NCBI RefSeq assembly: GCF_002564005.1
Contig: NZ_PDJG01000001.1
Coordinates: 1,860,001 to 1,924,000 of the forward strand
Origin: Sanguibacter antarcticus
Lineage (GTDB): Bacteria; Actinomycetota; Actinomycetes; Actinomycetales; Cellulomonadaceae
DNA length: 64,000 nt
Direction of reading: 5' to 3'
In this document: positions 135 to 10,172 of the stretch, piece after piece
How positions within the stretch are numbered: the first letter of the stretch is position 1
Layout of the letters: every line of letters starts with the position of its first letter
Notes under the pieces: generated by a model
What the model was told of the DNA's origin: nothing
The model's input: only the letters and a program-made list of their open reading frames with translations
Database searches by the model: none
Program-made: the position numbers and the translations under genes

Positions 135-2807
135 TCAGCGAGCGGCGGCGCTCCGCGCGATCCCCCGGAGCACGCTCATGTCGGCATCCCGGAAGACGGC
201 GTCAGCGTCGGCGAACGTCTTCAGGCTCTGGACCACCCAGACCTGCGCCAGCCCGTCGACGAGTCCTTCCACGACATCGATGTGCGGCGCCCCGAACCCC
301 GGAACGCCGTCGACGAGGACCGCGACCTCGTCGGGCGCGCGCAACGTCGCACTGTCCCCCGGACCCATGATCGTGCGCACCGCCTCGACGACCGCATCAA
401 CACCCGCGTCGACACCTTCACCGACGGTGGCGCCACCCTCCGTGAGCTCCCCCGACGACGCACCGCCGCCGGAAGGAACCACCCGCAGCAGCACGAGAGA
501 ACAGTCGTAGCCCTCCATGCGCCCGGCGCGTTCCACAGCCGCCGCCAGCCGGTCCATGAACACATCCCGGTGGACGAGCCCAGGCCGCGCGTCGCGCACC
601 GCGAACCGGCGCATCGCCTGCTCCTCGCGCCTCGTCTCCGAGAGATCCGTCATCGCACCGACGATCCGGGCAGGGCAGCCCGCCTTGTTGAGGACGGTCA
701 CCCCACGGCACAGGACCCAGCGATAAGCACCGCTCGCCGTGCGGATCCGCTGCTCGAGCATGAGCGGCTGCTCGACACCGGCCAGCTGCGCCGCGATCGC
801 CATCGACAGCTCGTCCCGGTCATCAGGGTGCACCCGGTCCGTCCACTCGTCCAACGACGTCCCGACCTCGTTCTCCGCATACCCGAGAACGCTCTTCCAC
901 CGAGGCGAGTAGTAGACCGAGCCAGACAGCACGTCCCAGTCCCACATCCCGTCAGACAGCGCCGCCGAGGCCAGCGCATAGCGCTCCTCGCTCGCCCGGA
1001 CCGCGGTCGCGAGCTCCCGCTCCCGCTCGGCAGAGATCTGCAGCGCGGTGCGCTGCTCCCGCAGCGACGCGAGCGTCTGCTCCTGGTCGAGCGCGATCGC
1101 GAGCATCGCCGCCCAGTGGTTGTACTTGTCGCGCGCGCTCGTCGAACGCGTATCGACCGGGCCACCGATCGTCAGATAGCCCCAGTCGCTCGCCGCGAAC
1201 GTCACCGGGATGACGAACGTGAGGTCAGGACGCGTCGCACCCGCCGATCGGGTGAGCGCCGGAGGCGGGAACGCACGCGCGGGCAGACGCATCCCGACGA
1301 GCCGGCTCCCCGTCGAACCGACGTCACGCGTCCCGACGATCTCCAGCTCGCGCTCTCCGTCCGCGGTCCGGCGCCCCGTCCACAGCGCGAGCGACGCAGA
1401 CCCGCGGTGCGCGTTCGGCAACCAGCTGAGGGTCCGCGGGCTCGCCCCGTCAGGCCGCATGAGCGCAAGATCGACCTCGTACTGGTTGACGAGCGTCCGC
1501 TCAAGGTGCCCCGAGCGAGCGAGCAGCCCGCGCGAGCACCCCTTCGTCAGTGCGACCGTCACCCCCGACGCAGCGCTGCGCAACGCGGCCGAGTGCGACG
1601 GCGAACCCGGCGGCAGGCCGAGCGCAGCCTCGGACTCGACAGCACGGACCGCGACAAGGATCTGCTCGAGAGCCTCCGGATGAGGGTGCAACGCCGTCGT
1701 CATGTCGGCCAACCGACCCAGAGCGGCCCCTGCGGGGACAGCAGCACGCTGCGCTGCGACGACAAGACTCTCCACGACGCACCGCACCCACATGCTGATG
1801 TCCGGCTGCGCACAGTCTCCGCCACGGGCACCGAAGAAGACCGCGCACGCCAGCTCGTTCAGCTGCGCAGCAGCCGATCCGCCACCCTCACGAGACACCC
1901 CGTCGACCAAGAGCCCCGCACGCGTCGAGTCGACGCACCCGCACGACTCCCTCGTCACGAGCGTCGTCTCCGACAGGTGTGCGCCCGGGCCCACGTCGTC
2001 CGAGACGAGCTGCGCCAGGAGCAGCCCCGCAGCGAGCTCCCCGACCCGGTCGTGGTGCGGGTCGATGCTCGAGAGCCGAGGCCGAGACCGAGCGCCTCCC
2101 TCAGCGTGGTCGAACCCGATGACAGCATGATCGGTCGGCAGAGCGATCCCCTCCGCCCGGAGGACAGCCATGAAGCCGAGAGCGTTGCGGTCCGTCGCCG
2201 CGACCGTCGCCGTGGTCGGCATCCCCCGGGCGAGCAGCTCGGTCGCCGCGGCAGACCCGCTCGCCTCCTGGTTGTCTGCAGTCGTGACGACCCACTCGTC
2301 CTGCGGCTCGATCCCGTTCGCGGCGAGCGTGCTGCGGTATGCCTCGTAGCGCTCGCGGATGTCGAGCTGCTGAGGGTTGCCCACGAACCCGATCCGGCTG
2401 TGACCGTGGTCGAGGAGGTGCTCGACCGCAGCGCGGATCCCGCCCCTGTTGTCAGGGGTGACGATCGGAGCCCGGAGCCCGGCCTCCTGCTCGCTGATCA
2501 CGACGAGCGGCTTGTCCGACCTGTCGAGCACGCGCAAGGTGTCACGGTCGACCGCCGACGTGATGACGATGACGCCGTCCACCGCATCGAGCCCGACGCA
2601 CGAGTCGTAGTCCGACTGCTCCGGAAACTTCTCGCGGTCGAGGTCTGCCGCATAGGTCTGGATCGCGACGACCTGGTGCCCACCGGCCCGGATCGCCCGA
2701 CCGATGCCCGAGAGCACCTTGCCGAAGTAGAAGCCACCGACGACCGGCGAGAGCACTCCCACGGTAAAAGGTCCTTGACTCGACCCGCGTCCGCTGCTGA
2801 CGGTCAC
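135..2807 (-). CDS. LacI-type sugar-sensor / PAS / degenerate GGDEF protein without HTH
   Basis: The 890-residue protein starts at GTG and has no signal peptide or N-terminal helix-turn-helix. Residues 14-290 look like the periplasmic-binding-protein-like effector domain of LacI regulators (FTVGVLSPVVGGFYFGK, GHSRIGFVGN, AVIGFDH, SSIDPHHDRVGELA). Residues about 295-575 are a GAF-like linker region. A short coiled coil (575-605) leads to a PAS_3 domain (605-730: DGMWDWDV, RVHPDDRDE, DLSETRR). The last 150 residues follow a GGDEF domain, but the signature is APDEV at 824-828 instead of GGDEF, so cyclase activity is unlikely. It diverges from the LacI repressor beside two cellulase genes. I infer a cytoplasmic sugar sensor that acts by protein contact or by binding a nucleotide. 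Confidence 0.85.
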   Translation of the reverse strand: MTVSSGRGSSQGPFTVGVLSPVVGGFYFGKVLSGIGRAIRAGGHQVVAIQTYAADLDREKFPEQSDYDSCVGLDAVDGVIVITSAVDRDTLRVLDRSDKPLVVISEQEAGLRAPIVTPDNRGGIRAAVEHLLDHGHSRIGFVGNPQQLDIRERYEAYRSTLAANGIEPQDEWVVTTADNQEASGSAAATELLARGMPTTATVAATDRNALGFMAVLRAEGIALPTDHAVIGFDHAEGGARSRPRLSSIDPHHDRVGELAAGLLLAQLVSDDVGPGAHLSETTLVTRESCGCVDSTRAGLLVDGVSREGGGSAAAQLNELACAVFFGARGGDCAQPDISMWVRCVVESLVVAAQRAAVPAGAALGRLADMTTALHPHPEALEQILVAVRAVESEAALGLPPGSPSHSAALRSAASGVTVALTKGCSRGLLARSGHLERTLVNQYEVDLALMRPDGASPRTLSWLPNAHRGSASLALWTGRRTADGERELEIVGTRDVGSTGSRLVGMRLPARAFPPPALTRSAGATRPDLTFVIPVTFAASDWGYLTIGGPVDTRSTSARDKYNHWAAMLAIALDQEQTLASLREQRTALQISAERERELATAVRASEERYALASAALSDGMWDWDVLSGSVYYSPRWKSVLGYAENEVGTSLDEWTDRVHPDDRDELSMAIAAQLAGVEQPLMLEQRIRTASGAYRWVLCRGVTVLNKAGCPARIVGAMTDLSETRREEQAMRRFAVRDARPGLVHRDVFMDRLAAAVERAGRMEGYDCSLVLLRVVPSGGGASSGELTEGGATVGEGVDAGVDAVVEAVRTIMGPGDSATLRAPDEVAVLVDGVPGFGAPHIDVVEGLVDGLAQVWVVQSLKTFADADAVFRDADMSVLRGIARSAAAR

Positions 2808-2923: not shown

Positions 2924-3973
2924 GTGATGAGCGAGACATCCCCCGAATTTACGCATTCCCCCAGCAAACGTCCAACGATCTCCGATGTGGCCCGCGCTGC
3001 AGGCGTCTCGATCGCCGTCGTGTCCTACGCGCTCAACGGTCGGCCGGGCGTCTCCGCTGCGACGCGCGACCGTGTCCTGAGGATCGCGGACGAGCACGGC
3101 TGGCGGCCGAACGCGGCGGCCCGCTCGCTGCGCACGAGCGCCCAGGCGGTAGGGCTCGCGCTCGTCCGGGGCGACACCGCCACCACGCACCCGGCAGCCT
3201 TCATGGCGCTGCTCGGCGGGATCCAGGACCGGCTCGCGAGCCGAGGCCTCGCTCTGGTGCTCCAGGCGGTCGACGACCACGAGACCGCGGCGCACCTCTA
3301 CCGCTCGTGGTGGGCAGAGCGTCGGTTCGACGCCCTGCTCGTCACTGACGTGCGCGTCAACGACCCACGTGTCGAGGCGCTGCGCTCGGCACGGATCCCG
3401 AGCCTCGTCGTCGGCCATCCTGGCGCGGCGCGAGGGCTCGCGTCCGTGCACGTCGACGAGGAGGAGGCCTACGGGCGGGTCGGCCGGTTCCTCGCAGGCC
3501 AGGGGCACCGACGGGTGGGCGTCGTCACGGGACCGGCCGACCTGGACATGTCGATCCGCAGAACTGCTGCGCTGCGCGCTGCGCTCGAGCAGGAGGGTGC
3601 CGCGGCGGTCGTCGTGACGACCGGGGCGAGCCAGGAGGAGGGGGCGTCCGCAACCCGTCAGCTCCTCGTGGACGCCGACCCGGTCTCCGCGATCATGTTC
3701 GACACGGACCTCAGCGCGACGACGGCGCTCGACGTGGCACGCCGGCTGCGCCGCGAGGTCCCGTGGGACCTGTCGGTCGTGGCAGGCACCGACTCGGCGT
3801 CGTGCCGTCTGGCGACACCGTCGGTGACCACTCTCCCCTCCCCTGTCGCGGAGCTCGGCGAGGCGGCCGCCCAAGGGCTGCTCGACATGCTGGACGGAGA
3901 GCGCGGCATCGAGCGAGTCGTCTCGGTGGGACCGCTCACGGTCCGGGGTACGACAGCCCCGTGGGGACGGTGA
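2924..3973 (+). CDS. LacI family transcriptional regulator
   Basis: A 349-residue LacI/GalR repressor. The N-terminal HTH and hinge are clear (TISDVARAAGVSIAVVSYAL, then WRPNAAARSLRTS), followed by a sugar-binding core with the usual GHRRVGVVTG and MFDTDLSATTALDVARR segments. Translation can start at GTG 2924 or at ATG 2927. It lies upstream of, and in the same direction as, the GH6 cellulase gene, with 193 bp between them. By family precedent (CelR, CebR) it probably represses the cellulases and is released by a cello-oligosaccharide. The target assignment is inference from position and from the palindrome at 4038. Confidence 0.92.
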   Translation: MMSETSPEFTHSPSKRPTISDVARAAGVSIAVVSYALNGRPGVSAATRDRVLRIADEHGWRPNAAARSLRTSAQAVGLALVRGDTATTHPAAFMALLGGIQDRLASRGLALVLQAVDDHETAAHLYRSWWAERRFDALLVTDVRVNDPRVEALRSARIPSLVVGHPGAARGLASVHVDEEEAYGRVGRFLAGQGHRRVGVVTGPADLDMSIRRTAALRAALEQEGAAAVVVTTGASQEEGASATRQLLVDADPVSAIMFDTDLSATTALDVARRLRREVPWDLSVVAGTDSASCRLATPSVTTLPSPVAELGEAAAQGLLDMLDGERGIERVVSVGPLTVRGTTAPWGR

Positions 3974-4037
3974 CGATTTCGGGATGAATGCCATAGCACA
4001 GGAACTTATGTCACGATTTGGTAACGGCGCAATACCT

Positions 4038-4045
4038 AAACGTTT
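4038..4045. promoter_or_regulatory. LacI-family operator candidate AAACGTTT
   Basis: The perfect palindrome AAACGTTT (within CCTAAACGTTTCAC) has the central CG and A/T-rich arms usual for LacI-family operators. It sits in an unusually AT-rich stretch (about 3985-4050) between the LacI gene and the GH6 start, where the cellulase promoter should lie. TTATGT at about 4005 could be a -35 element, with a -10 near 4030, which would place the palindrome close to the transcription start. No footprint is available. Confidence 0.45.
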
Positions 4046-4166
4046 CACGGCGTATCACCAGGATGTGCCACCTGTCACGTTGATCCTGTTGCAGCAGCTC
4101 CGCTGCGACCCGACCCCCACAGCGCGTCCGGGGTGCTCGGCACCCGTTCGACCACCCGGAGGAACC

Positions 4167-6287
4167 GTGTCTCAAGTCCCGAAGAGGCTGCGCACTGGCG
4201 CGTCAGCCGTCGCCGTGGGAGCGCTCCTATCGGCGCCGATGATCCTCGGCACCACCACGACCGCCGTCGGCGCAGAATCGCACGTCGACAACCCGTACGC
4301 AGGCGCGACGCAGTACGTCAACGCAGACTGGACTGCCAACGTCGTCGCCGAGGCAGCGGCCGTGGAAGCCACGGACCCGACCCTCGCCCAGCAGATGCTC
4401 TCCATCAAGAGCACACCCACCGCCGTCTGGATGGACCGTATCGGCGCCATCGAGGGCAACGTCGACGGCCCCGGCCTCAAGCACCACCTCGACGCCGCGG
4501 TCGCCCAGAAGTCGGGCAGCACCCCGATCGTCCTCAACGTCGTCATCTACGACCTCCCCGGCCGCGACTGCTACGCGCTCGCGTCCAACGGCGAGCTCCC
4601 GGCGACCGACGCGGGCCTCGAGCGCTACAAGACCGAGTACATCGACGAGATCGCCGACCTCCTGGACAACCCGGAGTACGCGGGGATCCGCATCGCGGCA
4701 ACGGTCGAGCCCGACTCGCTGCCGAACCTCACGACCAACCTCAGCGAACCTGCCTGCCAGCAGTCAGCGCCCTACTACCGGGCAGGCGTGGCATACGCGC
4801 TCGACAAGCTGCACGCCATCCCGAACGTCTACACCTACGTCGATGCCGCCCACTCGGGATGGCTCGGATGGGACACCAACTCGGTCGGCGCCGTCCAGAC
4901 CTTCGTCGAGGTCGCACAGTCGACCATCGCGGGCTTCGCGTCGATCGACGGGTTCGTGACCAACACCGCGAACTCCACGCCGCTCTCTGAGCCGTTCCTC
5001 ACCGACTCCTCAGCCAGCATCAACGGCATGCCGATCCGCTCGGCGAAGTACTACGAGTGGAACTTCAGCTTCGACGAGGCCGACTGGACGGCCGACCTCT
5101 ACAACCAGCTCGTCGCAGCAGGCTTCCCGGCAACGACCGGGATGCTCATCGACACCTCCCGCAACGGCTGGGGCGGCGACGCTCGACCCACCGCGGTGAG
5201 CACGTCGACCGACCTCAACACCTATGTCAACGAGTCACGCATCGACCGCCGCATCCACCGCGGCGCCTGGTGCAACCCGGCCGGCGCCGGACTCGGTGAG
5301 CGCCCCGTCGCATCGCCTTCCGGCTACACCGCCTCGCACCTCGACGCGTTCGTCTGGATCAAGCCTCCGGGCGAGTCTGACGGGTCCTCTACGGAGATCC
5401 CCAACGACGAGGGCAAGGGCTTCGACCGCATGTGCGACCCGACCTACGTGGCCGCCAAGCTCGGCAACCAGCTCACCGGGGCACTCCCCGGAGCGCCGGT
5501 CTCCGGCAAGTGGTTCTCGACTCAGTTCCAGCAGCTCGTCGCCAACGCCTACCCGGTGATCCCCGCCGACGGCACCGTCGACCCGACGCCGGACCCGACC
5601 ACGGACCCGACGACCGACCCGACCACGGACCCGACGACGGATCCCACCACGGACCCGACGACGGATCCCACGACGGACCCGGCTGACACGAGCTCGCCGA
5701 CCGTCCCGGCAGGCCTGACGGCCGGGACCACCACCACGTCGAGCATCCCGCTGACCTGGACCGCCTCGACCGACAACGTCGCCGTCACCGGCTACGACGT
5801 CTACCAGGGCACCGTGAAGATCGCCTCGACCACGACGCCCAGCTACACCGTCACCGGACTGACCGCTGACACCGCCTACACCTTCTCCGTCCGCGCCAAG
5901 GACGCAGCAGCCAACGTCTCCGCAGCCAGCGCAGCCGTCACCGCCAGCACCAAGGCAGCCACCACCACACCCGCCGGAGCCTGCAAGGTCACCTACTCGA
6001 CCAACGACTGGAACACCGGCTTCACCGGCTCGGCGAAGATCACCAACACCTCCAGCACCGCACTGAGCGCCTGGACCCTGGCCTTCACCTTCCCCGCCGG
6101 ACAGCAGATCAGCCAGGGATGGTCAGCCATCTTCACCCAGACCGGAACCACCGTCAGCGCCGCCAACCAGGCCTGGAACGGAACCCTCGCCGCCGGAGCC
6201 TCCGTCGACATCGGCTTCAACGCCACCCACACCGGCACCAACACAGCACCCAGCACCTTCACCCTCAACGGCACCACCTGCAGCTAG
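4167..6287 (+). CDS. Secreted GH6 cellobiohydrolase with FN3 and CBM2
   Basis: A 706-residue exported cellulase. GTG 4167 is chosen because GGAGGA precedes it and a Sec signal peptide (KRLRTGASAVAVGALL, cleavage near AVGA-ES) begins there. The catalytic domain (about 40-468) has GH6 signature 1 (VVIYDLPGRDC, helper Asp134), signature 2 (TVEPDSLPN, catalytic acid Asp183) and WIKPPGESDG with Asp405. A DPTT-repeat linker (about 472-506) leads to FN3 (510-596) and CBM2 (605-706, Cys606 and Cys705 bracketing the fold). By family it releases cellobiose from cellulose chain ends; the long catalytic domain with two signatures favours exo-action. The C-terminal half closely resembles that of the GH5 neighbour. 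Confidence 0.95.
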   Translation: MSQVPKRLRTGASAVAVGALLSAPMILGTTTTAVGAESHVDNPYAGATQYVNADWTANVVAEAAAVEATDPTLAQQMLSIKSTPTAVWMDRIGAIEGNVDGPGLKHHLDAAVAQKSGSTPIVLNVVIYDLPGRDCYALASNGELPATDAGLERYKTEYIDEIADLLDNPEYAGIRIAATVEPDSLPNLTTNLSEPACQQSAPYYRAGVAYALDKLHAIPNVYTYVDAAHSGWLGWDTNSVGAVQTFVEVAQSTIAGFASIDGFVTNTANSTPLSEPFLTDSSASINGMPIRSAKYYEWNFSFDEADWTADLYNQLVAAGFPATTGMLIDTSRNGWGGDARPTAVSTSTDLNTYVNESRIDRRIHRGAWCNPAGAGLGERPVASPSGYTASHLDAFVWIKPPGESDGSSTEIPNDEGKGFDRMCDPTYVAAKLGNQLTGALPGAPVSGKWFSTQFQQLVANAYPVIPADGTVDPTPDPTTDPTTDPTTDPTTDPTTDPTTDPTTDPADTSSPTVPAGLTAGTTTTSSIPLTWTASTDNVAVTGYDVYQGTVKIASTTTPSYTVTGLTADTAYTFSVRAKDAAANVSAASAAVTASTKAATTTPAGACKVTYSTNDWNTGFTGSAKITNTSSTALSAWTLAFTFPAGQQISQGWSAIFTQTGTTVSAANQAWNGTLAAGASVDIGFNATHTGTNTAPSTFTLNGTTCS
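4216..4229. promoter_or_regulatory. CelR/CebR-type operator inside the GH6 coding region
   Basis: TGGGAGCGCTCCTA differs by one base from the 14-bp CelR/CebR operator TGGGAGCGCTCCCA known from Thermobifida and Streptomyces cellulase genes. It encodes part of the signal peptide (Gly-Ala-Leu-Leu) 49 bp after the start codon and uses the rare leucine codon CTA. The position would suit a roadblock operator, but chance cannot be excluded. Confidence 0.5.
5577..5684 (+). repeat. DPTT linker repeat in the GH6 cellulase
   Basis: Tandem 12-bp units (gacccgaccacg with third-base variants) encode about eight Asp-Pro-Thr-Thr repeats between the catalytic domain and FN3. This is a proline/threonine linker typical of secreted actinobacterial cellulases. 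Copy number may vary between strains. Confidence 0.9.
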
Positions 6288-6351: not shown

Positions 6352-6384
6352 GACCGTGGTCCCCCACCGACCTTGGAGGATCCC

Positions 6385-8394
6385 GTGCTCCCGCAGCCGA
6401 CCCGTCCGCTCTTTGCTTCAGCCCTCCGGCACGCCGGCGCCGTCGCCCTCACGACGACGCTCGTCGCAGTGCCCCTGACTCTCGCTCTCCCCGCCCAGGC
6501 GGGACCGGCCCACGCCGCCCTGACGTCCGACGAGACCGACTGGCTCCACGTCGAGGGAAACCAGATCGTCGACGAGAACGGCAAGTCGGTCTGGATGACC
6601 GGCGTGAACTGGTTCGGCTTCAACGCCAGCGAGCGCGTGTTCCACGGACTGTGGTCCGGAAACATCACCAGCATCACGAAGTCGATGGCCGACCGCGGCA
6701 TCAACCTCGTGCGCGTGCCGATCTCTAGCGAGCTCCTCCTCGAGTGGCGCAACGGCGAGACGATCATGCCGAACGTCAACACCTACGCGAACCCTGAGCT
6801 CGCCGGCCTGAACAACCTCGAGATCTTCGACTACTGGCTCGACCTCTGCGAGCAGAACGGCCTCAAGGTCGTCCTCGACGCCCACAGCGCCGAAGCCGAC
6901 AACTCCGGCCACGTCTACCCGATGTGGTACAAAGACGCCATCACGACCGAGGACGTCTACCTGGGCTGGGAGTGGTTTGCGGACCGCTACAAGAACAACG
7001 ACACGGTCATCGGTGCGGACCTCGAGAACGAGCCGCACGGGACGCAGGGCGCCACCGAGCGGGCCAAGTGGGACGACTCGACCGACATCGACAACTTCAA
7101 GTACTTTGCCGAGACCGCAGCCTCACGCATCCTCGCGAAGAACCCGAACCTCCTCATCCTCGTCGAGGGCATCGAGATCTACCCGAAGGAAGGCGTCGAG
7201 TGGACGTCGACCGGCCTGACCGACTACTACACCAACTGGTGGGGCGGAAACCTCCGCGGTGTCGCTGAGCACCCGATCGACCTCGGCGAGCACCAGGACC
7301 AGCTCGTCTACTCCCCGCACGACTACGGGCCCCTCGTCTACCAGCAGCCGTGGTTCGAGGGCACGGACTGGGACCGCGAGTCGCTCGAGAGGGACGTGTG
7401 GGACCCGAACTGGCTGTACATCCACAAACAGGACATCGCTCCGCTGCTCATCGGTGAGTGGGGCGGCTTCCTCGACGACGGACCGAACGAGAAGTGGATG
7501 GTCGCGCTCCGCGACCTCATCGCCGAGAACCGGCTGCACCACACGTTCTGGGTCCTCAACCCGAACTCGGGCGACACGGGCGGTCTCCTCACCAACGACT
7601 GGGCGACGTGGGACGAGGAGAAGTACGACATCCTCGAGCCCGCCCTGTGGTCGCAGGACGGCTCGTTCGTCAGCCTCGACCACGAGGTCCCGCTCGGCGG
7701 CGCCGGGTCGACGACCGGCATCAGCCTCTCCGAAGCGGTCGGTGGCACGGTCACCGAGCCGACTGATCCCCCGACGGAGCCCTCGACCGACACCGTCGCG
7801 CCGAGCACCCCGACCGCTCTCGCGGCGGGAACGACCACGACGTCGACCGTGCCGCTCACCTGGACGGCGTCCACCGACGCGGTCGGAGTCACCGGCTACG
7901 ACGTCTACCAGGGCTCGGTGAAGGTCGCGAGCAGCACGACGCCGAAGTACACGGTGACCGGCCTCGCGCCGGCGACCGAGTACACGTTCTCGGTCCGGGC
8001 GAAGGACGCCGCCGGCAACGTCTCTGCAGCGTCGACCTCCGTCACGGCGACGACCGCCGCGGCAACCACGCCTGCCGGCACCTGCACCGTCGCCTACTCG
8101 GCCAACAGCTGGGTCGACGGCTTCACCGGAACCCTCAAGGTCACGAACACCGGCACCGCGGCACTCAGTGCGTGGACGCTCGGATTCACGTTCGCTGACG
8201 GCCAGAAGGTGACGAACGGCTGGAGCGGCATCTACAGCCAGACCGGGGCCGACGTCACGGTCGCCAACCAGTCCTGGAACGGGACGCTCCAGGCGGGCGC
8301 CACCATCGAGATCGGTTTCAACGGCTCCCACACCGGGACCAACACCGTCCCGTCGCAGTTCACGCTCAATGGCGCGGTGTGCTCCACGAGCTGA
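6385..8394 (+). CDS. Secreted GH5 endoglucanase with FN3 and CBM2
   Basis: A 669-residue exported cellulase. GTG 6385 follows GGAGGA by four bases and opens a Sec signal peptide (hydrophobic 17-36, cleavage near AQAGPAHA-AL). The GH5 domain spans about 52-425. The acid/base is Glu216 in ADLENEPHG and the nucleophile Glu358 in LIGEWGG. NWFGFN and SPHDYGP are also typical of the GH5_1-like branch, as in Acidothermus E1. A threonine/proline linker precedes FN3 (about 470-557) and CBM2 (565-669). It should cut internal beta-1,4-glucan bonds, complementing the GH6 enzyme. There is little room for its own promoter, so read-through from the GH6 gene is likely. Confidence 0.95.
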   Translation: MLPQPTRPLFASALRHAGAVALTTTLVAVPLTLALPAQAGPAHAALTSDETDWLHVEGNQIVDENGKSVWMTGVNWFGFNASERVFHGLWSGNITSITKSMADRGINLVRVPISSELLLEWRNGETIMPNVNTYANPELAGLNNLEIFDYWLDLCEQNGLKVVLDAHSAEADNSGHVYPMWYKDAITTEDVYLGWEWFADRYKNNDTVIGADLENEPHGTQGATERAKWDDSTDIDNFKYFAETAASRILAKNPNLLILVEGIEIYPKEGVEWTSTGLTDYYTNWWGGNLRGVAEHPIDLGEHQDQLVYSPHDYGPLVYQQPWFEGTDWDRESLERDVWDPNWLYIHKQDIAPLLIGEWGGFLDDGPNEKWMVALRDLIAENRLHHTFWVLNPNSGDTGGLLTNDWATWDEEKYDILEPALWSQDGSFVSLDHEVPLGGAGSTTGISLSEAVGGTVTEPTDPPTEPSTDTVAPSTPTALAAGTTTTSTVPLTWTASTDAVGVTGYDVYQGSVKVASSTTPKYTVTGLAPATEYTFSVRAKDAAGNVSAASTSVTATTAAATTPAGTCTVAYSANSWVDGFTGTLKVTNTGTAALSAWTLGFTFADGQKVTNGWSGIYSQTGADVTVANQSWNGTLQAGATIEIGFNGSHTGTNTVPSQFTLNGAVCSTS

Positions 8395-8984: not shown

Positions 8985-10172
8985 CTAGGACGCGATGCGC
9001 ACCGGCTCCGGAGCGAGCGGCTCGTGAGGATAGTGCGCCGACCGCTCCTGGAACGCGAGGATCGCAGGGTTGACGACGACCCCGTCGCGCACCTCGATCG
9101 CACGCGAGATGGTCTCGTCCATCGCCCAGGCCGACGGCCCGCCGAGGACGGCTCCGAGAAACGGCAGGAGCGCTTCGCTGATCTCCCACGTCGCGGCATT
9201 CCACAGGTAGGACGGGCTGTGGTCGACCGCGTAGTACGAGATGTGGTCGCCGACCTCGACCATCGGGTCGGCGAACGTCGTCGGGCGCGCCCAGCTAAAA
9301 CCCATACCTTCGTCGCACGAGACGTCCACGATGAGGCTGCCGGGGCGGAACGCCCCGAGGTCTCTCTCGTCCAGGTAGGTCAGAGGTGCGTTCGGGTCCT
9401 GGAGCGTGCAGTTGACGACGATGTCGCTGCGAGCGAGGAACGGGGCGATCGGGACCCTGCCGTCGTCGGTGGTCACGTGGCTGAGGAACGGCGCGTCGTC
9501 GTCGTGGTCGAACTGTGCCATCTGTGCGGAGTGGATCGGGGACCCCACCGCGGCGACGTCCCGATGGGTGAGCACCCGGACGTCGTGAACGCCGACAGCC
9601 TTGAGCGCCGTGACGGCACCGCGGGCGGTCGCTCCGAAGCCGATGACCACGGCGGTGAGCCGACGTCCGTAGTCGCCTGTCGCCCCGCAGAGCTGGAGCG
9701 CATGGAGCACCGAGCAGTACCCGGCGAGCTCGTTGTTCTTGTGGAAGACGTGGAGGCAGAATCCCCCGTCGCTCGTCCAGTGGTTCATGGCCTCGAACGC
9801 GATGAGCGTGAGGCGCTTGTCGATCGCGATCTGTGTGATCTCGCGGTCCTGGACGCAGTGCGGCCAGCCCCAGAGCGTCTGTCCGTCTCGCAGCTGGGCG
9901 AGGTCCTGCGCCTGCGGCTTCGGCAGAAGGATGATGTCTGAGCCCGCGATCACCTCGGAGCGCTCCGCGACCCGGCCGACGAACGGGGCGAGCTGAGCGT
10001 CGCTCATCCCGAACTGTTCTCCGTACCCGGTCTCGAGGGTGATCCGCCGTGCGAGCCCGGGATCGATCCGGTCGAGGTGCGACGGGTGGATGGGCAGCCT
10101 GCGCTCGTCGACCTTGCTCGAGGTACCCATGATCCCGAGCGTCAGACCAGTGCTGGCGCTCACGGGGCACAC
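8985..10172 (-). CDS. Alanine dehydrogenase / N5-carboxyethyl-ornithine synthase-like
   Basis: A 395-residue NAD(P)-dependent enzyme of the alanine dehydrogenase/PNT superfamily. The N-terminal half has VDERRLPIHP (21-30) and LLPKP with Lys85, matching the substrate-binding Arg and Lys of AlaDH. The second half has a Rossmann segment VIGFGATARGAV and VDVSCDEGMGF. The overall pattern is nearer to N5-(carboxyethyl)ornithine synthase and saccharopine dehydrogenase-type reductases than to canonical Ald. The substrate is therefore uncertain, with pyruvate plus an amino acid most likely. GTG 10172 and GTG 10163 are both possible starts; neither has a clear Shine-Dalgarno. Confidence 0.78.
   Translation of the reverse strand: MCPVSASTGLTLGIMGTSSKVDERRLPIHPSHLDRIDPGLARRITLETGYGEQFGMSDAQLAPFVGRVAERSEVIAGSDIILLPKPQAQDLAQLRDGQTLWGWPHCVQDREITQIAIDKRLTLIAFEAMNHWTSDGGFCLHVFHKNNELAGYCSVLHALQLCGATGDYGRRLTAVVIGFGATARGAVTALKAVGVHDVRVLTHRDVAAVGSPIHSAQMAQFDHDDDAPFLSHVTTDDGRVPIAPFLARSDIVVNCTLQDPNAPLTYLDERDLGAFRPGSLIVDVSCDEGMGFSWARPTTFADPMVEVGDHISYYAVDHSPSYLWNAATWEISEALLPFLGAVLGGPSAWAMDETISRAIEVRDGVVVNPAILAFQERSAHYPHEPLAPEPVRIAS

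Follow-up and report, generated by a model that had tools for sequence, protein, structure and literature searches.

A LacI-type sugar sensor with a degenerate GGDEF domain, linked to a divergent LacI repressor and cellulase genes in Sanguibacter antarcticus

Introduction

How could a sugar receptor influence cellulose use if it carries neither a DNA-binding domain nor a working catalytic domain? The question is raised by a stretch of 64,000 nucleotides from Sanguibacter antarcticus (contig NZ_PDJG01000001.1, positions 1,860,001 to 1,924,000; the whole stretch is referred to here as the window), in which positions 135–2,807 of the minus strand encode a sugar-sensor protein of 890 amino acids with a GTG start and no helix-turn-helix (HTH), as read from the open reading frame (ORF) and Pfam. 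A preliminary description of this gene, made from the sequence alone, combined a LacI-type ligand domain with PAS and a dead GGDEF domain in a protein tied to cellulose use, and suggested that it might bind GTP or cyclic diguanylate (c-di-GMP), partner with the adjacent LacI repressor, or act through PAS. Here we report that the sensor gene is conserved together with a divergent LacI gene and a cellulase gene of glycoside hydrolase family 6 (GH6), while its GGDEF domain has degenerated or been lost, which suggests that in cellulose-degrading actinobacteria an old second-messenger enzyme has been recruited to help regulate a cellulase gene probably under LacI control.

Results

Domain architecture of the sensor and its orthologs

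Pfam searches and profile comparison bore out the proposed make-up, a LacI-type ligand domain followed by PAS and a GGDEF-derived C-terminus, without an HTH. The LacI/GalR-type ligand-binding domain occupies residues 12–292 (positions 1,932–2,774; all sensor features lie on the minus strand), where matches to Peripla_BP_3 (residues 128–289, 7.8e-29) and Peripla_BP_1 together span residues 26–289, and it aligns with the LacI-family regulator chain 5ysz_A (1.7e-23), which we take to be CelR. The PAS domain covers residues 601–730 (618–1,007; PAS_3 at residues 631–718, 4.1e-19), and the degenerate GGDEF-derived domain, recognized through ortholog Pfam matches, alignment and profile comparison, covers residues 731–890 (138–617). 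The protein itself matches neither the LacI HTH (PF00356) nor GGDEF (E ≤ 1) nor EAL in Pfam. It has no strong hydrophobic stretch by the Kyte–Doolittle scale, the one measure used (19-residue mean peaking at 1.43), which fits a probably cytoplasmic location. The organism's own genome (one contig, 3.52 Mb) holds a single full-length copy, and 15 further sensor matches at E ≤ 0.001 are all partial, mostly to the ligand domain.

Between the ligand domain and PAS lies a conserved middle region (residues 293–600; 1,008–1,931) of about 300 amino acids that is common to the sensor orthologs and to the GGDEF-EAL relatives described below. It has no convincing relative in Pfam, where weak matches appeared in only 1–3 of 28 members, or in the PDB, where the best profile matches were two de novo designed helical proteins (E 0.054 and 0.33). 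Judged by its sequence, it is a candidate new domain.

We aligned 42 orthologous proteins (the window protein and 41 others) from loci that were picked by the position of the sensor gene alone. They comprise the window, 33 of 40 fetched neighborhoods, six named loci and two short ones; L052, a near-duplicate of L083, and L071, whose gene is split between two frames, were excluded from the alignment, and L075–L078 and L088, which encode GGDEF-EAL proteins, were moved to a separate set. Of the 14 loci in the named-record search, eight show similarity only around PAS and were set aside, and several long ORFs entered the alignment from an internal point close to where conservation sets in (e.g., L038, L073, L074, L079, and L081). 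Among 200 genomes of the family, 107 have a sensor match at E ≤ 1e-60, a count that includes the long relatives. Every one of the 42 orthologs retains the ligand domain (Peripla_BP) and PAS (Pfam, E ≤ 0.1), none matches the LacI HTH or EAL at the same threshold (eleven families were matched overall), and none contains an EAL motif.

Linkage to LacI and cellulase genes

The sensor gene diverges from a true LacI-family repressor gene that precedes two cellulase genes, as the preliminary description had stated. The LacI gene (2,924–3,973, plus strand), identified by its HTH (PF00356, 1.8e-15) and by ortholog pairing, is separated from the sensor gene by a 116-bp intergenic region (2,808–2,923) devoid of the TAANCGNTTY operator considered below, and it is followed on the same strand by genes for a GH6-fn3-CBM2 cellulase (3,984–6,287, with a likely GTG start at 4,167) and a GH5-fn3-CBM2 cellulase (6,373–8,394), both assigned by Pfam. 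The divergent LacI gene adjoins the sensor in 42 of 42 ortholog loci, the window included; 38 were counted by our first rule, and in the other four the sensor ORF has an over-long start that slightly overlaps the LacI match. A GH6 gene lies on the LacI side, 1.3–1.5 kb from the sensor start, in 39 of the 42 loci, with 61–79% identity in the 38 apart from the window, and the three loci without it (L020, L023, and L042) are on sequences that end before the GH6 position. GH5 is present in 18 of the 42. The linkage is thus found in every ortholog locus long enough, so the homologs are not scattered away from glycoside hydrolase genes, and the proposed tie of this sugar-sensor/PAS/dead-GGDEF protein to cellulose use gains support. 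We consider the link between the sensor gene and cellulose to be strong.

The pairing extends to the wider family. When LacI and sensor coordinates were compared by eye across the 200 genomes, 55 of 56 LacI matches at ≥46% identity were divergent and within ~240 bp of a sensor match, and the 56th (G154) lies on a different contig from its sensor fragment. Below 46% identity, paired and unpaired LacI genes mix (e.g., unpaired G041, G079 (45%), and G056 (44%); paired G103, G117, and G024, at 43–45%). The outer flanks vary by genus group and include a DEAD-box helicase cluster, a phosphoribosylglycinamide synthetase cluster and a GH48 cluster, each named from the Pfam reading of one member. In eight loci of one genus group, the GH48-cluster gene stands on the other side of the sensor (e.g., L066:10020–13619), and in four of these eight an operator core lies just past the sensor stop codon. 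In the window, the gene next to the cellulases (8,985–10,172, minus strand) presumably encodes an amino-acid dehydrogenase-like protein.

A predicted operator precedes the cellulase genes

A predicted LacI-type operator, CTAAACGTTTC, lies upstream of the GH6 gene at 4,036–4,046 (plus strand; motif match). We counted operators in 36 loci, namely the 38 with an anchored LacI minus L023 and L042, which end within LacI; L087, L041, L043, and L063, where an over-long start hid LacI from the first rule, are outside this count. TAANCGNTTY with at most one mismatch occurs between the end of LacI and the beginning of GH6 in 35 of the 36 loci, in several overlapping the LacI stop codon, and in none of the 36 within the 200 nt upstream of the sensor, the upstream stretches rather than reshuffled sequences being the comparison for this motif. 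The strict core AANCGNTT follows the LacI stop in 22 of the 36 loci, whereas 300 reshuffles, which preserve first-order Markov composition only, averaged 0.66 and never exceeded 3. The whole of the organism's own genome contains six exact YTAAWCGNTTY sites against zero for a reversed control, and four of the six directly precede genes for secreted-type CBM2 enzymes (GH6, GH10, lytic polysaccharide monooxygenase LPMO10, and GH5), some of these sites also facing another gene on the opposite side. The other two exact sites (genome positions 3119953 and 3279935; L109 and L111) lie upstream of a gene for a trypsin-like protein and of one for a protein without a Pfam match.

Anderson et al. (2012, PMC3377646) described a motif, CNAA(T/A)CGNTT(A/C), for cellulase genes of Cellulomonas flavigena; the available text on that motif names no regulator, and it states that no such site was found for Jonesia denitrificans. 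The sole miss among our 36 loci, L040, is a Jonesia and agrees with that result as given there. We consider the divergent LacI a good candidate regulator of the C. flavigena-type cellulase motif.

Other palindromes were also sought. No near-perfect 14-base palindrome upstream of the sensor is common to the loci; by eye, an imperfect inverted repeat, GATGCG/CGCATC, is visible in the sensor–LacI intergenic region of several (e.g., L083, L057, and L072). With a query that we take to be the Thermobifida fusca CelR palindrome, a CelR-type site, TGGGAGCGCTCCTA, was matched with one mismatch at 4,216–4,229, inside the signal-peptide codons of the GH6 gene. The TGGGAGCGCTCCTA match is also present in S. 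suarezii (L039), and the chance expectation in the window is 0.59 (at most two mismatches); we did not use this site.

Degeneration and loss of the GGDEF domain

Although the window copy is too diverged to be matched by Pfam, descent of the C-terminal domain from GGDEF is clear from ortholog matches and profile comparisons. PF00990 is matched by 19 of the 42 orthologs at E ≤ 0.1 (best 1.9e-14); a profile built from 26 of the 32 ortholog C-terminal domains aligns by hhalign with the GGDEF domains of eight long relatives (99.66% probability, E 2.9e-25) and matches solved GGDEF chains in the PDB at 1e-13 (3icl_A). In the window protein the place of the GG(D/E)EF signature reads APDEV (residues 824–828; 324–338) and the preceding nucleotide segment is lost, both as first described and now confirmed in the alignment. 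Among the 32 orthologs that keep a C-terminal domain of more than 100 amino acids, none has GG[DE]EF, and none has the DxDxFKxxND metal/nucleotide segment, which was sought by the looser pattern DxDxFK/FKxxND and is missing from the alignment. Eighteen of the 32 domains, in other genera, retain RxxD at the inhibitory-site (I-site) position, and c-di-GMP binding is accordingly possible there; the window protein has GPGD at this place, the Arg being lost (residues 815–818; 354–365).

The remaining ten of the 42 orthologs, which include the congener S. suarezii, a Jonesia and Oerskovia loci, end within ~40 residues after PAS, and no remnant of the domain was seen by eye downstream of the S. suarezii sensor stop. 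In a FastTree tree built on the portion that begins with the ligand domain and ends with PAS, and rooted on the eight long relatives, the domain-less orthologs fall in five places; as one of the nodes involved has a support of 0.46, this corresponds to four or five losses of the domain.

The rest of the protein is under purifying selection. The ratio of nonsynonymous to synonymous substitution rates (dN/dS), obtained by simple counting (NG86), is 0.15 for the ligand domain, 0.20 for the middle region, 0.22 for PAS and 0.45 for the C-terminal domain between the window protein and S. suaedae, the one Sanguibacter pair. In 14 further, closer pairs, which share members, most domains are lower than the 0.15–0.22 of the Sanguibacter pair, and in the 11 of these with a C-terminal domain on both sides the value for that domain is 0.05–0.24. 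The GGDEF remnant is maintained in other genera and relaxed in Sanguibacter. All 42 aligned orthologs have an uninterrupted frame through PAS. Outside the alignment, the ortholog split into two frames (L071, genome G069) reflects a recent frameshift or an assembly error, and six sensor matches list an internal stop, all of them ending at residues 736–748, just beyond PAS.

Relatives outside the clade

The proteins closest in architecture retain what the sensor has lost. All eight long relatives have GGDEF and EAL domains by Pfam, one with the signature AGDEF. A further eleven come partly from two genomes of the same family and otherwise from different families within the order; all 11 show a GGDEF signature, 10 have the DxDxFKxxND pattern and eight carry an EAL-type motif. 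Outside the clade overall, a GGDEF-type domain is therefore found in 19 of 19 relatives and EAL in 16 of 19. These 19 proteins occupy 16 loci, only one of which has a GH6 gene, and LacI at E ≤ 1e-15 is found in two of the 11 newer loci. The single GH6 locus, L119:178–6555 (G213, from another family), encodes a GGDEF-EAL relative divergent from a LacI gene with GH6 beyond it (50% identity over 443 amino acids). Its LacI is only 28% identical to that of the window and the match of its relative to the sensor stops before PAS; L119 may represent an earlier, ancestral state or a parallel arrangement. Separately, we observed by eye that L077:7894–18296 contains three tandem LacI-domain/PAS/GGDEF-EAL genes, divergent from a DEAD-box helicase-like gene.

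Discussion

We propose, with a probability of about one half, that the sensor is a non-catalytic sugar receptor that acts on the LacI repressor/cellulase switch by protein contact. It would have originated from a LacI-domain/PAS/GGDEF(-EAL) c-di-GMP enzyme and would now serve as a one-component sugar receptor in the cytoplasm, with neither DNA binding nor enzymatic activity as its output. Its ligand domain would bind a sugar derived from cellulose, cellobiose or a cello-oligosaccharide being the likeliest, and the binding state would be relayed via the middle region and PAS so as to alter, through a presumed protein contact and in one direction or the other, the activity of the divergently encoded LacI. 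The GH6, GH5, GH10, and LPMO genes behind the CTAAACGTTTC-type operator would thus receive a second signal, from a sugar or from metabolism, and the GGDEF remnant would be at most a surface for dimerization or interaction, which some genera have kept and others can do without. A receptor that adjusts LacI by contact is the simplest reading given that the ligand domain, middle region and PAS are kept in 42 of 42 orthologs, that the c-di-GMP part is broken or gone, and that LacI and GH6 recur beside it. From the sequences, partnership with the adjacent LacI appears the most economical explanation.

Several points weigh against this proposal. The arrangement with LacI and GH6 does not require loss of catalysis, as L119 keeps both GGDEF and EAL, and the purifying selection on the remnant in 11 within-genus pairs implies that it does something in other genera. 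The operator motif was defined after the same sequences had been seen. It is absent from the sensor's own promoter region, so the sensor gene may itself lie outside the regulon. The ligand domains of the sensor and LacI are only 30% alike over 138 amino acids, so distant that similarity does not predict a mixed dimer. Finally, the ligand, the interaction with LacI and the phenotype are all things that we infer.

The alternatives differ in where the sugar signal would go. It is rather unlikely that the protein still takes part in c-di-GMP signaling, by binding at the I-site or by pairing with active GGDEF/EAL proteins that pass the signal on. The ancestry of the domain fits such a role, as do the GGDEF-EAL make-up of the eight long relatives scanned, the RxxD motif in 18 of the 32 orthologs with the domain and its purifying selection in the 11 pairs from other genera; moreover, c-di-GMP signaling genes exist in the cell, since the organism's own genome has 11 GGDEF matches (ten strong and one at 39 bits), five EAL matches above the cut-off and one PilZ. 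However, ten of 42 orthologs have lost the domain and retained the LacI linkage, and the window protein retains neither the metal/GTP segment nor the signature nor the I-site arginine, while the domain evolves faster than the others (0.45 against 0.15–0.22) and is missing from the congener S. suarezii. These features argue against GTP or c-di-GMP binding by the window protein, the part of the preliminary interpretation that is not supported, and make direct c-di-GMP action by it unlikely; overall, that interpretation is partly supported. The conservation of PAS in 42 of 42 orthologs and of a middle region without known relatives could also mean that the two pass a sugar or redox signal to another partner, such as a kinase or an anti-sigma pathway, and that LacI is adjacent only because it shares the stimulus. 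We regard this as quite unlikely, as the gene maps show no such recurrent partner across genus groups and it is LacI and the cellulase cluster that recur.

That the linkage is accidental, with the gene controlling something else and held in place by a divergent promoter that cannot be broken, would be in keeping with the short intergenic region shared by the two genes (116 bp in the window). It is nevertheless improbable: the sensor/LacI pair and GH6 persist while the outer flanks change between genus groups, and eight loci have a GH48-cluster gene on the other side, four of them with the operator core past the sensor stop. Loss of the catalytic motifs, the relaxed C-terminal domain in the Sanguibacter pair, the gene in two frames in G069 and the six matches with a stop at residues 736–748 might be taken to indicate a functionless, dead relic of a c-di-GMP enzyme, an idea we find hardly credible in view of the frame uninterrupted through PAS in 42 orthologs and of the low dN/dS of the other domains, both in the Sanguibacter pair and, for most domains, in the 14 closer pairs.

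If the sensor does act by contact with LacI, the case may be a general one, and we raise the tentative and at present doubtful idea that HTH-less LacI-type receptors derived from c-di-GMP enzymes form a class of co-regulators that, gated by sugar, act on a separate LacI as anti-repressors or co-repressors. Were this true, two sugar inputs would converge on one operator in Cellulomonadaceae, and a one-component repressor would have become a two-protein switch. In any event, the C. flavigena-type cellulase motif now has the divergent LacI as a candidate regulator and this protein as a candidate second sensor, and cellulase induction in what are presumably Cellulomonas-like bacteria becomes testable. 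The series from GGDEF-EAL through degenerate GGDEF to no GGDEF shows a second-messenger enzyme that seems to have turned into a non-catalytic sugar receptor. A search of the literature outside subscription journals found no paper on a Cellulomonas LacI/cellulase/GGDEF system, on c-di-GMP together with LacI and cellulases in actinobacteria, or on a Peripla_BP_3-GGDEF system, and the papers that mention Cellulomonas along with diguanylate have titles on other subjects.

Among known systems, the nearest are the LacI-domain/(PAS)/GGDEF(-EAL) proteins of the same order (L115–L125 included), which share the ligand domain and middle region, and often PAS, with the sensor at 32–43% identity. They differ in keeping a GGDEF-type domain (19/19) and mostly EAL (16/19), with GH6 in one of 16 loci. 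PelD is a degenerate-GGDEF receptor that binds c-di-GMP at RxxD. FimX, as presented in the available text of a c-di-GMP review (PMC8846402), resembles the sensor in having a GGDEF-derived domain without the normal signature, but it senses GTP and carries EAL, while the window protein lacks both EAL and RxxD; in the same text, the LacI-type domain is one of the putative sensory domains listed as possible binders of solutes, sugars among them. CelR of T. fusca, a LacI-family cellulase regulator described in the available text of PMC3377646, is likewise a LacI-type sugar receptor tied to cellulase control; unlike the sensor, which has no HTH, it binds DNA, at an operator different from the one found here. 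The C. flavigena cellulase motif, in the form given in the same source, has the same core as the operator that lies between LacI and GH6 at this locus.

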